NCBI RefSeq assembly: GCF_000429945.1
Contig: NZ_AUCV01000014.1
Coordinates: 1-64,000 of the forward strand
Origin: Desulfogranum japonicum DSM 18378
Lineage (GTDB): Bacteria > Desulfobacterota > Desulfobulbia > Desulfobulbales > Desulfobulbaceae
Direction: 5' to 3'
DNA: 64,000 nucleotides
The position numbers and the translations under genes are program-made. Within the stretch, counting starts at the first letter, position 1; every line of letters begins with the position of its first letter. Below the pieces are notes generated by a model. It searched no databases and was not told where the DNA came from. It was given only the letters and a program-made list of their open reading frames with translations. Shown piece by piece: positions 43,960 to 51,101 of this stretch.

Positions 43960-44418
43960 GGTTCCCCCTTACCTGGCAATGGCAGAATGCCGTTTGCAGT
44001 AGAAGAGTGGTGACAGATCCCAGGCACTGTAAATCTGCTAGGCACGGTTTTTCTCTCTACGGAGAAAACCATCGCCCAAAGGTGGAGGGCCTGTAATCTG
44101 TATAAAAAATGAGACTGTATAATATTAAAACTCACAATAAATACAAGGGAGAATGTGTGTTTCCCTAGCCTTATAAAACGTATGGCGTCCCGGGTTCCAG
44201 GGAGAAAAACAACTGCTTACAGCATAATTTCTTTTTTCATCCGATTATTTTCTTGCTGGAAAGAGGGTAGGGAATGCGTCATTCGCACCATCATACTCTC
44301 AGCTGATATCTTCTTGTTTGCCTTTCCCCTAAACACGGTTTATGCTCTTTCTCATTCATCTGCAATTGGTAATGCTTTACTTTCATTAATGTTTTACTGC
44401 TCGCAGCCATATCTTGCC
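43960..44418. other. Upstream region of the lasso-peptide genes
   Basis: About 460 bases between the divergent hyuA-like and lasso B2 genes. A TATAAT at 44118-44123 is a good -10 box but has no matching -35. A variant REP-like palindrome lies at 44263-44290. The open frame continues upstream from the B2 gene to 44155 but runs through the repeat. Confidence 0.4.
44263..44290. repeat. REP-like palindrome, variant copy 2
   Basis: GAGGGTAGGGAATGCGTCATTCGCACC: a variant of GTAGGGTGCGTCACACGCACC in which the stem bases change on both sides (AATGCG/CATTCGC), keeping the hairpin. Confidence 0.55.
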
Positions 44419-44832
44419 ATGATCAAATTTTTAACTCTGCCTTTTTCGAGAAAAAAACTTCTCCTTACCTCCCTGTTGCTGTCTCTGGCAATCTGGTTTG
44501 GCCTGCGCCTGCGCCCGTTGAGGTCTGTTGTCCAATATGTGCAGACACCGTCTGGTAAGCTCGAAAACATATATACTTTAACCGATATACTCTGGGCCAT
44601 CCGAGCCATTGACCGCCGTTTTTCCCATGCCACCTGTCTGGTCAACGGACTGGTTGGCCAATACCTGTTTACCAGAAATCAGATAGCATCCCAGCTCTGT
44701 ATTGGTGTGAAAAAAGAAACAACCGAGCTTAAGGCCCATGCCTGGGTGGTAGTGGATGATCAGATTGTGATCGGCAATATTCCTGATTTGGATTCCTACA
44801 CCCCCTTACCTTCACTGCGCCTGACCCCATGA
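44419..44832 (+). CDS. Lasso peptide biosynthesis B2 protein (leader peptidase)
   Basis: A 137-residue transglutaminase-like cysteine protease that cuts the leader from a lasso precursor. The N-terminus MIKFLTLPFSRKKLLLTSLL... and the following LRLRPL match the usual B2 start. Catalytic residues: Cys in HATCLVNGLVGQYLF, His in LKAHAWVVVDD. A longer open frame starts at 44155, but the added 88 residues are not B2-like and run over a REP-like repeat; the chosen start lacks a good ribosome binding site. It overlaps the cyclase gene by 4 bases (ATGA), so the two are coupled. No B1 leader-binding protein is fused or adjacent. Confidence 0.85.
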   Translation: MIKFLTLPFSRKKLLLTSLLLSLAIWFGLRLRPLRSVVQYVQTPSGKLENIYTLTDILWAIRAIDRRFSHATCLVNGLVGQYLFTRNQIASQLCIGVKKETTELKAHAWVVVDDQIVIGNIPDLDSYTPLPSLRLTP

Positions 44833-46700
44833 GCACCATTGCAGGCATTGTCTATAACGAGCAGCACCCAGGTGCAGGTCAACGTGTACACGCCATGTTA
44901 TCTGCCATGTCAGAACGGGCAGGGGCCCTTCCTCAAGTCCAAACCCTTGGGCGCGCCTGCCTGGGCTTCAGCCTTTTTGTAACAGATACCGGCCAAACTG
45001 TTGAAAAGACTCCCCTGGTCTGCCAGAGTAAGCAGTTTTTATTAACCGGGGATGTCCGTCTTGATAATCGAACAGAACTGGCCCATGACCTGAACCTGAA
45101 TCCTGCAGACTACAGCGACAACGGCCTGCTTCTCCACGCCTGGAAACACTGGGGCACAGATACTCCCCGTCACCTGACGGGTGACTACGCTTTTGCACTC
45201 TGGGATACCAGCCAGCAACGCCTTTTTTGCGTGCGCGACCGGTTGGGGATTCGGCCGTTATTCTATTGCCACACTCCACAATTTTTTGCGTTTGCTTCAG
45301 AGATCAAAGCACTTCAGGTTCTGGTTGACAGTGCCATAGATGAACACACCCTTGCTGCCTATATTCTGCGCCTTGTTCCCAATCCTGCGCACACTTTTTT
45401 TCAGGATATCCACCGCCTGCTTCCTGCAACCATTAAACAGGTTCATGGTCAGAAAACAACAACCCATACATATTGGAGTCCGCATGAAGTCGCCCCTATA
45501 AATTGCGGTAACACAGAACAATATGCACAAATGTTCCGGGAACTCTTTGCTCAAGCTGTCCATTGCAGGCTGCAATCCTCTGGTGTGGTTGGCTCTACAT
45601 TAAGTGGAGGGCTGGATTCCTCTTCCATTGTCTGTACAGCCGCACCCCTACTGAACAAGGCTGGCAGGGAGCTGTTTACCTATTCTGCCGTTTTTAGCGG
45701 TCTTGAGGGTGAAGATGCTTTTAGGGTGGATGAGACTGTGTATCGCCAGGCTGTGCTTGACCAGGTACTGGTACAACCACGGATTGTTGATGTAAGCCAG
45801 GCTGATATCTATCAGCAGTTAGATCAGGAACTCTCCTGGCTCGATGCTCCCTTTTTCAATCCCAACCTTTATATACATAGAGCTCTGTACCAACAGGCAA
45901 GAAATGATGGGGTGCAGGTGTTTCTTGATGGTATTGATGGCGATACTGTGGTTTCCCATGGCTACGAACTTCTACCCCAGCTTTTTCTTAAGCCCGGGTG
46001 GATCAGACTGCATAGGGAACTGCAGCATATGAAACACTTGAGTGGCAGTCGTCAGCCACTGTGGAGGCTGGCAGCAGCCTATGCTGTAAAACCGGTACTC
46101 CAATGGCTGCTTGATTCGCCTATCCTGCGTACGGTTATAACTCTGCCAACTTGCAAGGCCAGTTTTTCAGAGGAGTTTGCAAAGCGTAACCCTTTGGCTC
46201 CGCTTATTTATGAAAGTTCATCACAAACCCATACAGATGTTGGCAATGCACGCAATCATCACAAGGCTACCCTCGCGCTGCCGCACCTCATGTTTGCTCT
46301 GGAAACCAGCAATCAGGTGGCATCCCGATATGATATGGAGGAGCGATACCCGTTTCTCGATACCAGACTGGTGGAATTCTGCCTGGCTCTACCTCCGGAA
46401 CAGAAGTTTCATAATGGCTGGAGTCGTGCCATTCTCCGTAAGGCCATGGCATCCACTCTGCCTCCCAAAATTTGCCAGCGCCTCACCAAGGCTAACTTGA
46501 GCCCTGTGTTCATGCAGCAGACCCGAACTGCAGGCAGAGAAATACTGGCACAACATTGTGATTCAGCTAACCCGCTTCTGAGCCAATATCTTGCGCCCGC
46601 ATTTACCCACAAACTCCTTAGTCACCAGAAGCCTGAAAGCAGTTTGCAACTTTACGCAACAGTTTGCCTGCTCAAATGGCTGGAAAAGCATGTGGTCTAA
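44829..46700 (+). CDS. Lasso peptide cyclase, asparagine-synthetase-like C protein
   Basis: A 623-residue protein with an N-terminal glutaminase-like domain (MSTIAGIVYN...; residue 2 is Ser, so no glutaminase Cys; VRDRLGIRPLFY; FASEIKAL) and a C-terminal AMP-forming synthetase domain. The ATP pyrophosphatase loop is STLSGGLDSSSIV (about 258), with FLDGIDGDTVVSHG and MEERYPFLDTRLVEF further on. Lasso cyclases activate the Asp/Glu side chain of the core as an AMP ester and close the macrolactam. Coupled to B2 by a 4-base overlap. No B1, transporter or isopeptidase gene follows; two small paralogues do. Confidence 0.9.
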   Translation: MSTIAGIVYNEQHPGAGQRVHAMLSAMSERAGALPQVQTLGRACLGFSLFVTDTGQTVEKTPLVCQSKQFLLTGDVRLDNRTELAHDLNLNPADYSDNGLLLHAWKHWGTDTPRHLTGDYAFALWDTSQQRLFCVRDRLGIRPLFYCHTPQFFAFASEIKALQVLVDSAIDEHTLAAYILRLVPNPAHTFFQDIHRLLPATIKQVHGQKTTTHTYWSPHEVAPINCGNTEQYAQMFRELFAQAVHCRLQSSGVVGSTLSGGLDSSSIVCTAAPLLNKAGRELFTYSAVFSGLEGEDAFRVDETVYRQAVLDQVLVQPRIVDVSQADIYQQLDQELSWLDAPFFNPNLYIHRALYQQARNDGVQVFLDGIDGDTVVSHGYELLPQLFLKPGWIRLHRELQHMKHLSGSRQPLWRLAAAYAVKPVLQWLLDSPILRTVITLPTCKASFSEEFAKRNPLAPLIYESSSQTHTDVGNARNHHKATLALPHLMFALETSNQVASRYDMEERYPFLDTRLVEFCLALPPEQKFHNGWSRAILRKAMASTLPPKICQRLTKANLSPVFMQQTRTAGREILAQHCDSANPLLSQYLAPAFTHKLLSHQKPESSLQLYATVCLLKWLEKHVV

Positions 46701-46890: not shown

Positions 46891-47072
46891 CAAATTTAAC
46901 CCAACATCTCCGAATGACCTCTCTATCCCGGCAAATAGCATCTTATTTCTAATAGATGATAATTTAAACTATCATTTATTCCTTTTTTTAACCCCATTGC
47001 TACAACCCTTGTGGTGATTAATGTCTCAATCACAAAGGAAGAACACAATAAACACTACCCATGGAGGTTACC

Positions 47073-47240
47073 ATGTACGGATATGAATCACTTGCCTGGA
47101 TTAAAGATAAACACGGTAAAGAATATGTATGCCCCATTGATGTACTCAAAGGCGATATCAGTGACCGCGACGATTTAACGGAAGAAGAACGTAAACAATG
47201 CATGGATGTTAATCAGCTCATAGGAACAGAGCGTTGGTAA
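47073..47240 (+). CDS. Small conserved-looking protein, paralogue 1
   Basis: A 55-residue protein: GYESLAWIKDKHGKEYVC near the start and CMDVNQLIGTERW at the end, with an acidic middle (DISDRDDLTEEER). The ATG is preceded by GGAGG at good spacing. It is about half identical to the next gene, with the same conserved N- and C-terminal blocks, so the pair is a tandem duplication under selection. No leader-peptide motif, membrane segment or known domain is seen, and the sequence is not like a B1 leader-binding domain. Function unknown; its position between the lasso cyclase and the precursor may be chance. Confidence 0.75.
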   Translation: MYGYESLAWIKDKHGKEYVCPIDVLKGDISDRDDLTEEERKQCMDVNQLIGTERW

Positions 47241-47266: not shown

Positions 47267-47467
47267 ATGGAACATAGTGAAAGAAATACAAACTTGAACA
47301 GCGTTGGGTATGAATCCCTGGTATGGGTACGTGATGAAGCAGGTAAAGAGTTTTCCTGTTCGGTTAATCCGGGAAAAGGTCAGGTGAAAAATTTTGCTGA
47401 TCTCAGCGAAGAAGAAAAAGCAACCTGCATGGATGTCAATCAGATAATCGGCACAGAAAGGTGGTAA
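47267..47467 (+). CDS. Small conserved-looking protein, paralogue 2
   Basis: A 66-residue protein with the same blocks as its upstream neighbour: GYESLVWVRDEAGKEFSC and CMDVNQIIGTERW, and LSEEEKATC before the second. AAGGAGG at 47255-47261 fixes the start at 47267, 26 bases after the first gene; the longer frame from 47234 is not needed. Two Cys residues are conserved between the two proteins, one in each block. A terminator follows. Function unknown. Confidence 0.78.
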   Translation: MEHSERNTNLNSVGYESLVWVRDEAGKEFSCSVNPGKGQVKNFADLSEEEKATCMDVNQIIGTERW

Positions 47468-47515: not shown

Positions 47516-48430
47516 ACACTAAAGAGCTTTTTTTATGGTACACACGTCGCACCATGAAGCTGCAGCCATTACCCAAATAGTAATATTTACCCCTAACCCG
47601 CCAAAAAATTCCATATACTCCCATGAGTATCATCTGGTACAAACTTGGGTAGGGTGCGTTACACGGATCACAAAAGTTAAGTGCTTTTCCCCACGCTTTT
47701 TTAGCCGGAACTCCCCCAACAGACCAGCTTCACCCACAAAACAGTAACCTTTATTTAACACGTATAACGCACATGCCTGCCGTAGCCTCTTCTCTGCCTC
47801 CATCCTTACCGATCAGGCTCATTTGCTGGTGCATTCCCCCCAGACTGTACCAGCCAGGGATTGCGCTTTGCGGAACTATCCCTCTTATGTTCCGTAGAAA
47901 CTATGAAATAAGCACAACCTGCCAGTCGGTTTTGTATGCTGAATTATTGAGATGACATTTTTGAAGAGACCTTTTTCTGTTACTAAAGTTTTGCTGTGTT
48001 TGCAAGTTCTACGTCATGGTTTACTTGTTTTGGCAGGCCACATCCGAACATGGATCAGGCATGTTGGCACGCTGCTACTGGTTGAAATAGTGTGTAATTT
48101 GAAACTCATGGCGGCGTGGTTATATCTGTGATCAGTTATCTTTTATCATATAGCACAGAGTATTGTTACGTTGTTGCGACCGGTTCTGGTATCTTGAAAA
48201 AAATATTTGAGGTGATCATGAATGTATATTTGCATAAACTGTTGTTTGAACACAGTTAGTTCAACGGACTGCATAAGCTGTGGGCAGGGCAAATAAGAAA
48301 GGGGTTGCGGCAAACAAAACTAAATAAGGCTTGATTTCATCCCATGAGTGTGTTTATCAAGTACCTACTGCCATCATACTTCTATGTTACCAGCTTTTTT
48401 GTTGTCTTTTACTATGATCGGAGGATCGTG
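47516..48430. other. Upstream region of the lasso precursor gene
   Basis: About 900 bases. A truncated REP-like palindrome (47647-47675) and several short frames without support. A 13-codon frame (48218-48259) has GAGG before its ATG and could be a leader peptide. No B1-type gene is seen. Confidence 0.4.
47647..47675. repeat. REP-like palindrome, deleted copy 5
   Basis: GGGTAGGGTGCGTTACACGG followed by ATCACAAAA: the left arm of the palindrome is kept and the right arm is shortened, but the flank GATCACA is shared with copy 4. Confidence 0.6.
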
Positions 48431-48589
48431 ATGGAAACCAGAGAGAAAGTTACAAATAATACTGAAAAGAAGCAGTGGGCACAGCCTGAGCTGACCCATT
48501 ATGGCAGCGTTGAAAAAATTACCCTCAAAGGTTGGGGCGCACAGGATGGTCAGGGCCTTGAGCCTGCCGGGCATCATCCTAGTCTGTAA
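48431..48589 (+). CDS. Lasso peptide precursor
   Basis: A 52-residue peptide. The leader carries W16-x2-P19-x-L21-x3-G25-x5-T31, the exact spacing of the lasso leader consensus Y-x2-P-x-L-x3-G-x5-T with Trp for Tyr. With Thr at -2, the core is residues 33-52, KGWGAQDGQGLEPAGHHPSL. Asp39 would then be core position 7 and could close a 7-residue ring with the alpha-amine of Lys1. Starts at Leu32 (8-residue ring) or Gly34 (6 residues, too small) are the alternatives. GGAGG is 6 bases before the ATG. A stem-loop and a kinase gene follow. Confidence 0.82.
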   Translation: METREKVTNNTEKKQWAQPELTHYGSVEKITLKGWGAQDGQGLEPAGHHPSL

Positions 48590-49578: not shown

Positions 49579-50324
49579 AAACGTTATAAATTAGCGACTT
49601 CCTTAAATATTTTTTTTACGTTAGTTTTTTTTTATAGTCTTATTTTTAATCAGCATATTGCTGGCTAAATTTTTATTGTAACTCCGCGAGGTTATTCAAT
49701 GTTGCATGAACGCTGTTCTGTGTATTGATGCATTACGAACTCGTAACCACAACAATATACCTGACGATATCAGAAGAGAGTTATTTGGCGTTGGAGAGCT
49801 TGTGGCGACAAGATAAGTTGCAAGAGTATTCCTTCCGAAAAGACGGAAACGCTATTGAAGAAGCCAGTTTGCATACTTCATTTTGTTCTGGTATCTTGCC
49901 TTTCATCAAATGATGATACAGGAGTATGTTGATGGATGTTCGCTGTGTTGTCTATTCATAAACAAAAACTCATAGTTTTTTCTTATTCACTGGGGCTCTT
50001 TTTTGCTACTTTTTGAGTTTTCCCCAGTAAAAAAATGTTGTTTATATCATATATTTTATGCCTGGTCAGGAGTATGTGTATTCTTTAAAAGAATTACATG
50101 GCAGAATTCTTTTAACACATGTTTCTGGAGGTATGTAGTTGCTGGACATAGAAGTTGTGCGTGCTCAACCGAAAGTATGATCTTTGTATTGGGCAGAGTG
50201 TTTCATTACAGTATCTGAAGGTTGAACTGAAGAGGCAAAAGGCTTTGAGTGTCGACATCTGCCTGGCAGTCAGGTGTCACTAAAACAACCGTATGGTTAC
50301 GGTATATTGCAGGAGAATGAAGAA
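49579..50324. other. Intergenic region, no supported gene
   Basis: About 745 A+T-rich bases. A 62-codon frame at 49725-49913 has no ribosome binding site and no recognised product. No repeat or terminator was found. Confidence 0.35.
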
Positions 50325-51101
50325 ATGAACAAGTTACTGGCGAGTCTTACCGCAACAGCTGCCGGATGCCTGTTTTTCAGCACTGGTGCGCAGGCAGCTT
50401 CGTATACCTTTGAATTTAACGCAAATGATATTCTGTACATTGAAGGGGTGCTCTTTGGCAATGGTGGCAGCACACCCACAGCAGCAGATATTTACAATGG
50501 CGCTACCCGTGTTGTCATGGGAGATACCGTTTATACAACTTATACTTCAGGTGCAGATACAGCTGCATTTCAAACAAATTTTTATAATGAGGCTCTTGCC
50601 AACGATTATCGCCTGACCTCTTTTAATCTCTGGGGGCTTGGTGATATCAGTGGAGCAAGCGCCTCTGACTGGGGCGAGGAGTATGTGGTTGACGGGTGGG
50701 ATTTCAGTGGTTCTGTGGGCGCAAGCGGCTGGTATGCCTTTCTGTACAGCGACAGCGGAACATTGGATGAGACCGTGCCTGTATATGCCTCTCTTGAGCT
50801 TAGTGACGGAGCATCCTATGCCAATGGTATCAGCTATACCTATAGCGAATCTGAACTGGCAGCGTTCACCTTTACAATAACATTTGATCTCGATGATTCG
50901 TTTGACGGCTGGTATTTGGATCAATATGGCGACCTGGTTTTCTGGATTGGTGGCACCTTCGTCGATGCAGATGGCAATCTGGTTGCAAGTTACCAGACCA
51001 ATATGTTGTTGACAGCAAATGGTGTTCCTGAGCCTGGTTCCATGATGCTGTTCGGTGCAGGTATGCTGGGCATTACTGCTGTTATACGACGTAAAAAATA
51101 A
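50325..51101 (+). CDS. PEP-CTERM sorting-domain protein
   Basis: A 258-residue secreted protein. The signal peptide is MNKLLASLTATAAGCLFFST ending near AQA. The body is rich in Asp, Ser, Tyr and Gly, beta-strand-like, and not recognised. The C-terminus is a textbook PEP-CTERM signal: VPEPGSMMLFGAGMLGITAV then IRRKK, i.e. the VPEP motif, a membrane segment and Arg/Lys end, cleaved by an exosortase. AGGAGA about 10 bases upstream supports the ATG at 50325 rather than 50274. The next genes are an exopolysaccharide locus, the usual setting for these proteins; no exosortase gene lies in the window. Confidence 0.88.
   Translation: MNKLLASLTATAAGCLFFSTGAQAASYTFEFNANDILYIEGVLFGNGGSTPTAADIYNGATRVVMGDTVYTTYTSGADTAAFQTNFYNEALANDYRLTSFNLWGLGDISGASASDWGEEYVVDGWDFSGSVGASGWYAFLYSDSGTLDETVPVYASLELSDGASYANGISYTYSESELAAFTFTITFDLDDSFDGWYLDQYGDLVFWIGGTFVDADGNLVASYQTNMLLTANGVPEPGSMMLFGAGMLGITAVIRRKK

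Follow-up and report, generated by a model that had tools for sequence, protein, structure and literature searches.

The window, by which we mean the whole 64-kb stretch of DNA analyzed, carries a short gene, A, that probably encodes a lasso peptide precursor, judging from its sequence and its surroundings (Table 1). The initial annotation had recognized it from the exact W-x2-P-x-L-x3-G-x5-T spacing of the leader and from nearby genes for a leader peptidase (B2), a cyclase (C) and a kinase (K). Both lines of evidence held up, and the three neighboring genes are matched by the corresponding profile models, B2 above its cut-off and C and K below theirs. An alternative in-frame ATG lies upstream of gene A at 48344 and would give an 81-aa product.

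Table 1. Features of the predicted lasso peptide locus, in window coordinates.
Feature	Position	Strand	Basis
Lasso leader peptidase B2, transglutaminase-like	44155..44832	+	NF033537, 72.7 bits (cut-off 33); PF13471
Lasso cyclase C, asparagine-synthase-like	44829..46700	+	NF033535, 479.7 bits (cut-off 525); PF00733, PF13537
GGAGG ribosome-binding site of gene A	48420..48424	+	Six bases 5' of the ATG
Probable lasso precursor gene A, 52 aa, METREKVTNNTEKKQWAQPELTHYGSVEKITLKGWGAQDGQGLEPAGHHPSL	48431..48589	+	Open reading frame; lasso_cyano, 20.9 bits; G032 ortholog
Predicted leader peptide, residues 1-32, ending T(-2)-L(-1)	48431..48526	+	Spacing; predicted cleavage site
Predicted 20-aa core, KGWGAQDGQGLEPAGHHPSL	48527..48586	+	Translation; predicted core boundary
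Core codons	Lys1 48527-48529; Asp7 48545-48547; Ser19 48581-48583	+	Translation
HprK-like lasso kinase K, 303 aa	48667..49578	+	TIGR04352, 45.1 bits (cut-off 200); H-G-G-G-K-S-D-D motif

If the core begins at Lys33, the leader WAQPELTHYGSVEKITL has W(-17), P(-14), L(-12) and T(-2). In the available portion of PMC10368454, lasso leaders are numbered by YxxPxL at -17 to -12 and by residue -2. Precursor A shows this arrangement with Thr(-2), and Trp replaces Tyr. A leader pattern set without reference to the core, [YWFH]..P.....G.{5}T, matched once in the 64-kb window compared with a mean of 0.27 matches in 60 dinucleotide shuffles, or 0.10 when the sixth residue was required to be L, I, V or M. 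The expected match to a lasso-leader HMM did not reach curated thresholds: the precursor scored 20.9 bits with lasso_cyano NF033528 (cut-off 33) and 12.2 bits with lasso_leader_L3 (cut-off 19). Because 20.9 bits lies under the curated cut-off of 33, we do not assign the precursor to the NF033528 subfamily. It had no Pfam match, and a promoter and terminator scan around gene A gave counts no higher than in shuffles.

B2 is the sole PF13471 match in the genome and probably starts at the ATG at 44419. The best NCBIfam model for C is the lasso cyclase, at 479.7 bits; the asparagine synthase model reaches 224.8 and the EPS amidotransferase model 157.1. The C protein begins MSTIAG and has no Cys following Met, which is expected in a cyclase that does not use glutamine. 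When window C was searched against plasmids, the best 60 of 122 records were mainly rhizobial and other annotated asparagine synthases, and the precursor gave no plasmid match at E 1; plasmids thus supplied no independent test set. No exporter was recognized by eye among the listed locus ORFs, part of which were covered by the HMM scan, and no ATP-grasp family, the mark of graspetides, was among those shown for the eight locus ORFs scanned.

No B1 was seen within the operon. The PF05402 profile has two matches in the genome, and the stronger is a 91-aa protein at G000:C11:80160-80435, for which the lasso B1 model NF033536 gives 74.2 bits (cut-off 80) and the HPr-rel-A PqqD model 27.0. This gene lies 31.6 kb downstream of A, behind exopolysaccharide genes, and its sequence suggests that it is likely the lasso B1 of this system. 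At 180 bases in front of it (as L012:1160-1435) is a gene whose GNVR and P-loop domains are those of polysaccharide tyrosine kinases. The best PqqD protein of G032, a genome of the same genus, is encoded at L168:5337-5642; the gene about 1.8 kb in front of it has Wzz, GNVR and P-loop domains. In both genus members, the putative lasso-type B1 lies apart from B2-C-A-K and behind a polysaccharide tyrosine-kinase-like gene.

Exopolysaccharide-type genes adjoin the locus, including those for a PEP-CTERM protein, an O-antigen-ligase-domain protein and a bacterial sugar transferase, with others recognized by eye. The PEP-CTERM gene lies downstream of the kinase at 50316-51101 and occupies the same place on the A-K contig of G032; this contig and that of the window continue into genes that look alike by eye. 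Two small ORFs between C and A, 47061-47240 and 47267-47467, were considered as a local B1 or second precursor. They were rejected because the family occurs in 56 of the 193 genomes of the order and has no meaningful Pfam or NCBIfam score. The two ORFs encode paralogous proteins of about 60-66 aa ending in CMDVNQxIGTERW; the family, defined from 47267-47467, includes 47061-47240 among its matches and has neighboring copies in several genomes.

The catalytic motif of the kinase is intact (H118...GDSGAGKST...SDD), as it is in the G032 and G096 kinases. The same His, P-loop Gly/Lys/Ser and Asp-Asp residues are reported for lasso kinases in the accessible text of PMC9266682 and PMC10368454, which places K with the PadeK, ThcoK and BsfK type. 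Ser19 is the only Ser, Thr or Tyr of the window core and therefore its likely kinase target, so K may act on this residue; the G032 core additionally has Tyr3. Phosphorylation targets described in the literature available to us are the C-terminal Ser of paeninodin and Ser3 of BsfA. In the survey below, Ser was found in the last three core residues of 28 of the 48 precursors near a kinase and 6 of the 16 without one, which shows no clear link (Fisher p 0.16).

A precursor search of the 193 genomes of the order returned four genomes at E <=0.01, the window's own genome included. The G032 ortholog shares 79% identity over 43 aa, and the remaining two genomes belong to another family and have different cores. 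The G032 core, KGYGANDGHGLEPGGHHPSL, keeps K1, D7 and the PSL end of the window core, and the gene also has a GGAGG, here ten bases 5' of the ATG. Of 37 aligned codons, 17 differ synonymously between the two precursors and 6 differ in the encoded amino acid (dN 0.13, dS 1.9, dN/dS ~0.07). The precursor evolves under purifying selection. In G032 it is followed by the kinase and then the PEP-CTERM gene, and B2 and C are found on a different contig that ends shortly past C. The expectation that the ORF be conserved in relatives with the same B2 and C was thus borne out in this one relative, with the precursor kept beside the kinase and B2/C on a separate contig. The B2 model was found in six of the nine genomes examined; G123, G136 and G157, of the same genus, were without it.

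Could these genes be a decayed or re-used cassette of an exopolysaccharide locus, in which a kinase, a PqqD protein and an amidotransferase-like enzyme make no cyclic product? None of the precursor, C, B1 or the kinase reaches its curated NCBIfam cut-off, B1 lies outside the operon and far from the other genes, and exopolysaccharide and PEP-CTERM genes surround the locus, all of which speaks against a lasso reading. However, a decayed cassette is hard to reconcile with purifying selection on the precursor, with a B2 above its cut-off and an intact kinase motif, or with a C that lacks a Cys nucleophile after Met and is best matched by the lasso cyclase model. We consider the loss of a working lasso system highly improbable. 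With the lasso genes present, the system counts as a lasso-peptide variant that should work alike.

According to the accessible text of PMC10368454, Thr(-2) occurs in all lasso precursors reported earlier, and Ile or Val at this position is a rare exception. Under this rule, Lys1 would be the first core residue. Asp7 is the sole acid at core positions 6-11 and hence the only acceptor within 7-9. These features agree with the proposal in the initial annotation that Lys1 and Asp7 form the only fitting ring pair.

We surveyed how the first core residue relates to the acceptor in other lasso precursors. The survey covered 80 loci around cyclase relatives, precursor relatives from 24 of 257 genomes, and B2 matches in three groups: the order of Spirosoma validum (49 of 341 genomes), the phylum of L050, a Verrucomicrobia record (15 of 387, 13 over cut-off), and the window's phylum (52 of 395, 26 over cut-off). 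From among the B2 and precursor matches listed, 100 stretches were taken. The sample, which consists of window-cyclase relatives and B2 searches in three groups, is non-random and leaves out the Actinomycetes, the source of huascopeptin. Ten loci repeating longer ones were excluded before filtering. The filters kept 66 of 129 leader-motif ORFs and removed 1 for core length, 11 that overlapped a lasso gene, 17 without a same-strand lasso gene within 4 kb and 34 identical duplicates. Two non-Lys1 ORFs were removed by eye as chance frames (L063 at 14191, with no acid at 7-9, and L241 at 10029, with D8), leaving 64. Near-identical rows such as L009 and L010 were retained in the counts, and L106 was left out of them. 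In one batch of 60 loci, motif ORFs were found in 9 and presumed precursors in 7. In L258, L260 and L268, all of the Spirosoma type, there is a cyclase, and no precursor was found.

Lys occurs at T+2 in 13 of the 64 precursors. All 13 have Asp7 and no further acid at positions 6-11. Among the 51 non-Lys1 precursors, an acid is found at position 7 in 2, at 8 or 9 in 40, and at none of 7-9 in 10. The two with an acid at 7 are L033, which also has D10, and L063, whose E7-E10 run is counted in both classes. The association between Lys1 and Asp7 is strong (Fisher 8e-12, kinship not corrected for), and with both eye-removed ORFs restored, an acid stands at position 7 in 13 of 13 Lys1 precursors versus 2 of 53 others. 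The Lys1 members comprise the window, G032, L046 (a Methylacidiphilaceae MAG), L050 (Verrucomicrobia LP2A) and nine precursors of the Spirosoma order. These nine come from Spirosoma validum, Fibrisoma limi and other genomes, with two from one genome, and include cores beginning KLGSISDG, KIGSNTDG, KSGSATDG and KGGSTPDF. We also searched with relaxed criteria for Lys1 precursors that had escaped the pattern, including any with another acceptor; judged by eye, none was convincing. One candidate counter-example, L266 8383-8631, is leader-like with Lys at T+2 and no acid at 7-9. We rejected it as an out-of-frame reading because its DNA aligns with L267 and L269, where the frame and motif are absent. 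By eye, L266 8339-8944, L267 and L269 hold a conserved non-lasso gene between C and B1, with the frame CxKCGxCCDGTLF.

The first residues of the 51 non-Lys1 cores are G (14), A (12), Q (8), N (4), V (4), S (3), Y (2), E (2), I (1) and L (1). The earlier statement that cores usually start with Gly, Ala, Ser or Cys was therefore too narrow, since 22 of the 51 start with Q, N, V, Y, E, I or L. Of these 22, 17 carry an acid at 8 or 9 but not at 7, indicating that a bulky residue 1 alone does not accompany a short ring. In the window's own order, the precursors L009:7021, L010:3817, L016:1155, L106:1480 and L103:1471 have Tyr1, Gln1, Met1 or Glu1 with D8 or D9. From these sequences, residue 1 looks little restricted in precursors of this order.

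Some loci met in the survey differ in gene content. L009 (G079:C77) has two cyclases, two precursors, one B2, one B1 and two shortened-looking kinase frames. In the Spirosoma order, L234-L244, L247-L251 and L253 are B1-B2-HprK loci with no leader-motif precursor and, by seed models, no C within ~6 kb; small ORFs were inspected in four of them. These loci are possibly a different peptide or polysaccharide system built from the same parts. Two precursors, L334:8555 (VKSAPAKDG) and L030:8039 (VVKTGSSYD), keep a Lys-to-Asp spacing of six with Lys off T+2, and on the cyclase tree L334 falls together with the Lys1 pair L046/L050.

If the leader were cut elsewhere, Lys would not be the first residue: cleavage after Thr would give Leu1-Asp8, and cleavage after Lys is the other option. 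The cleavage site of precursor A is a prediction, Leu1 lasso peptides exist, as do Trp1 ones, and in L334 and L030 Lys is farther from Thr with the Lys-to-Asp spacing unchanged. However, among the 13 Lys1 precursors the residue at T+1 is L (11 precursors) or Q (2 precursors), and both residues are common at -1 in other precursors. A cut after Lys would also leave a six-residue ring, for which we know of no lasso precedent. The W, P and L of the leader are in register as well, and Thr(-2) is near-universal in reported precursors (PMC10368454, available portion). These data make a different register improbable, and we retain Lys1 as the predicted first residue.

We examined how the Lys1 type is distributed on a phylogeny of the cyclases (INDEPENDENCE), a tree of 53 sequences, 12 of them with Lys1 precursors. 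The Lys1 label required three changes, all forced by supported branches on the quick tree, and three on the careful tree as well. The lineages are the window genus, the Spirosoma/Fibrisoma type and the Verrucomicrobia type. AU tests rejected the grouping of all Lys1 cyclases (p 0.0016) and of each pair of Lys1 groups (p 0.0013, 0.00009 and 0.008), with the groups named once the first tree was seen. Four Lys1 rows (L046, L050, L167 and L263) were flagged for unusual amino-acid composition. According to these trees, the Lys1-Asp7 type occurs on three separate cyclase lineages. A paired test gave a median p of 0.25 and, with three pairs only, cannot reach significance. We also looked for cyclase columns that mark the Lys1 groups, defined as those in which one residue class covers at least 75% of every Lys1 group and <20% of the other rows, with no gap in Lys1 rows. 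None was found, and random sets of 12 rows average 0.005. This comparison bears essentially on columns outside the N-terminal part, because the N-termini of two Lys1 rows, L263 and L265, are shortened or different.

From the observed gene, register, conserved K1 and D7 and enzymes, we infer the following pathway. The distantly encoded B1 would bind the leader, and K would probably phosphorylate the precursor at Ser19. B2 would cleave behind Leu(-1). The asparagine-synthase-like C would adenylate Asp7 and join it to the Lys1 alpha-amine, giving a seven-residue, 22-atom ring, and the tail GQGLEPAGHHPSL may be threaded or partly threaded through this ring. We give a probability of roughly 0.55 to this reading, in which the product of the locus is a lasso-type RiPP of class II (Cys-free) with an alpha-linked Lys1-Asp7 ring. 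A Lys1-Asp7 bond of either kind, alpha or epsilon, we consider quite probable. Alpha closure is favored because it is found in characterized lasso peptides and in the Gly1-Asp7 ring of huascopeptin. However, it leaves unexplained why Lys, alone in the survey, accompanies Asp7.

That pairing would be explained if C linked the Lys1 epsilon-amine to the Asp7 side chain and left the N-terminal alpha-amine free. By our own count, alpha-linked rings have 22 atoms with D7, 25 with D8, 26 with E8 and 28 with D9, and an epsilon-linked K1-D7 ring has 26. Our count agrees with the 28 atoms given for the nine-residue Asp ring of lihuanodin (PMC13352647) and conflicts with the 22 atoms printed for an eight-residue Asp ring in the available text of PMC12427821. 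An epsilon-linked ring would thus be as large as a Gly1-Glu8 ring, an ordinary size for the cyclase pocket, even though one or two residues are missing, and this would account for Lys being paired with a ring that is shorter by one or two residues. Consistent with epsilon closure, Lys1 and Asp7 occur together in all 13 precursors across the three cyclase lineages, other bulky first residues come without a shorter ring, and in the relaxed search no Lys1 precursor with a different acceptor was convincing. Position 1 is K in 9 of 9 Spirosoma/Fibrisoma-type precursors and V, I, A or L in the D9 cyanobacterial clade, and D8 is found in the G1 core of L252 (GMGSGGGD), which comes from the order that includes the Spirosoma-type group.

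Huascopeptin weighs on the other side, since its Gly1-Asp7 alpha ring forms without Lys and Asp7 therefore does not need Lys. We had considered whether an alpha-linked Asp ring of seven residues would be too small for a lasso, making the epsilon-amine necessary, and dropped this argument in view of the same peptide. Reviews give the alpha-amine for characterized lasso rings, no cyclase column marked the Lys1 lineages by our criteria, and a paired test would need more than three origins to reach significance. The spacing kept in L334 and L030 with Lys away from T+2 also counts against epsilon closure. Taken together, we regard side-chain closure at this locus as rather unlikely. That lasso cyclases of three lineages in separate phyla came to epsilon-amine closure of Lys1 on Asp7 is likewise a doubtful proposal, put forward tentatively.

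The preferred alpha-linked Lys1-Asp7 product can be set beside known lasso systems. Cyanobacterial-type clusters (NF033528, NF033535) share the leader type, the cyclase family, separate B1 and B2 and an often nearby kinase, whereas the window locus scores below the curated cut-offs. Residue 1 of the cyanobacterial cores in the survey, unlike that of the window core, is A, E, I, L, N, Q, S or V. Their acceptor, where one can be assigned, is D8 or D9, and several have no acid at 7-9. Huascopeptin is reportedly a product of Streptomyces, and the xanthomonin ring is said to be Gly1-Glu7, with 23 atoms. Huascopeptin is a Gly1-Asp7 macrocycle lasso in the accessible part of PMC12427821; it shares a seven-residue ring on Asp7 with the ring predicted here but has Gly1 and 13 aa rather than Lys1 and 20 aa. 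The xanthomonins likewise have a seven-residue ring (PMC13352647, available portion). The paeninodin type also has a kinase with His-Lys-Asp-Asp beside the precursor and Ser near the C-terminus. This Ser is penultimate here (PSL) but terminal in the paeninodin type, as described in the available text of PMC9266682. Metanodin is presented in the accessible portion of PMC12670498 as the first lasso peptide with Asn1, a residue supported by MS, and was found by reasoning from Thr(-2) as here. It shares a non-canonical first residue and the Thr(-2) register with the window precursor but differs in having Asn1, a nine-residue ring and a residue 1 without a second amine (PMC12670498, same portion). 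A literature search, with most subscription papers outside its reach, found no report of a Lys1 lasso peptide.

The recurrent Lys1-Asp7 type would represent either new seven-residue-ring lassos with a charged residue 1 or the first side-chain-closed lasso. To our knowledge, every characterized lasso ring is closed by the N-terminal amine. If epsilon closure were true, Lys1-Asp7 would be a predictive signature of a new macrocycle chemistry performed by asparagine-synthase-like enzymes, and the free N-terminus would permit fusions and labelling that are barred in ordinary lassos. Genome-mining rules that require Gly, Ala, Ser or Cys at position 1 would overlook the entire Lys1 group.
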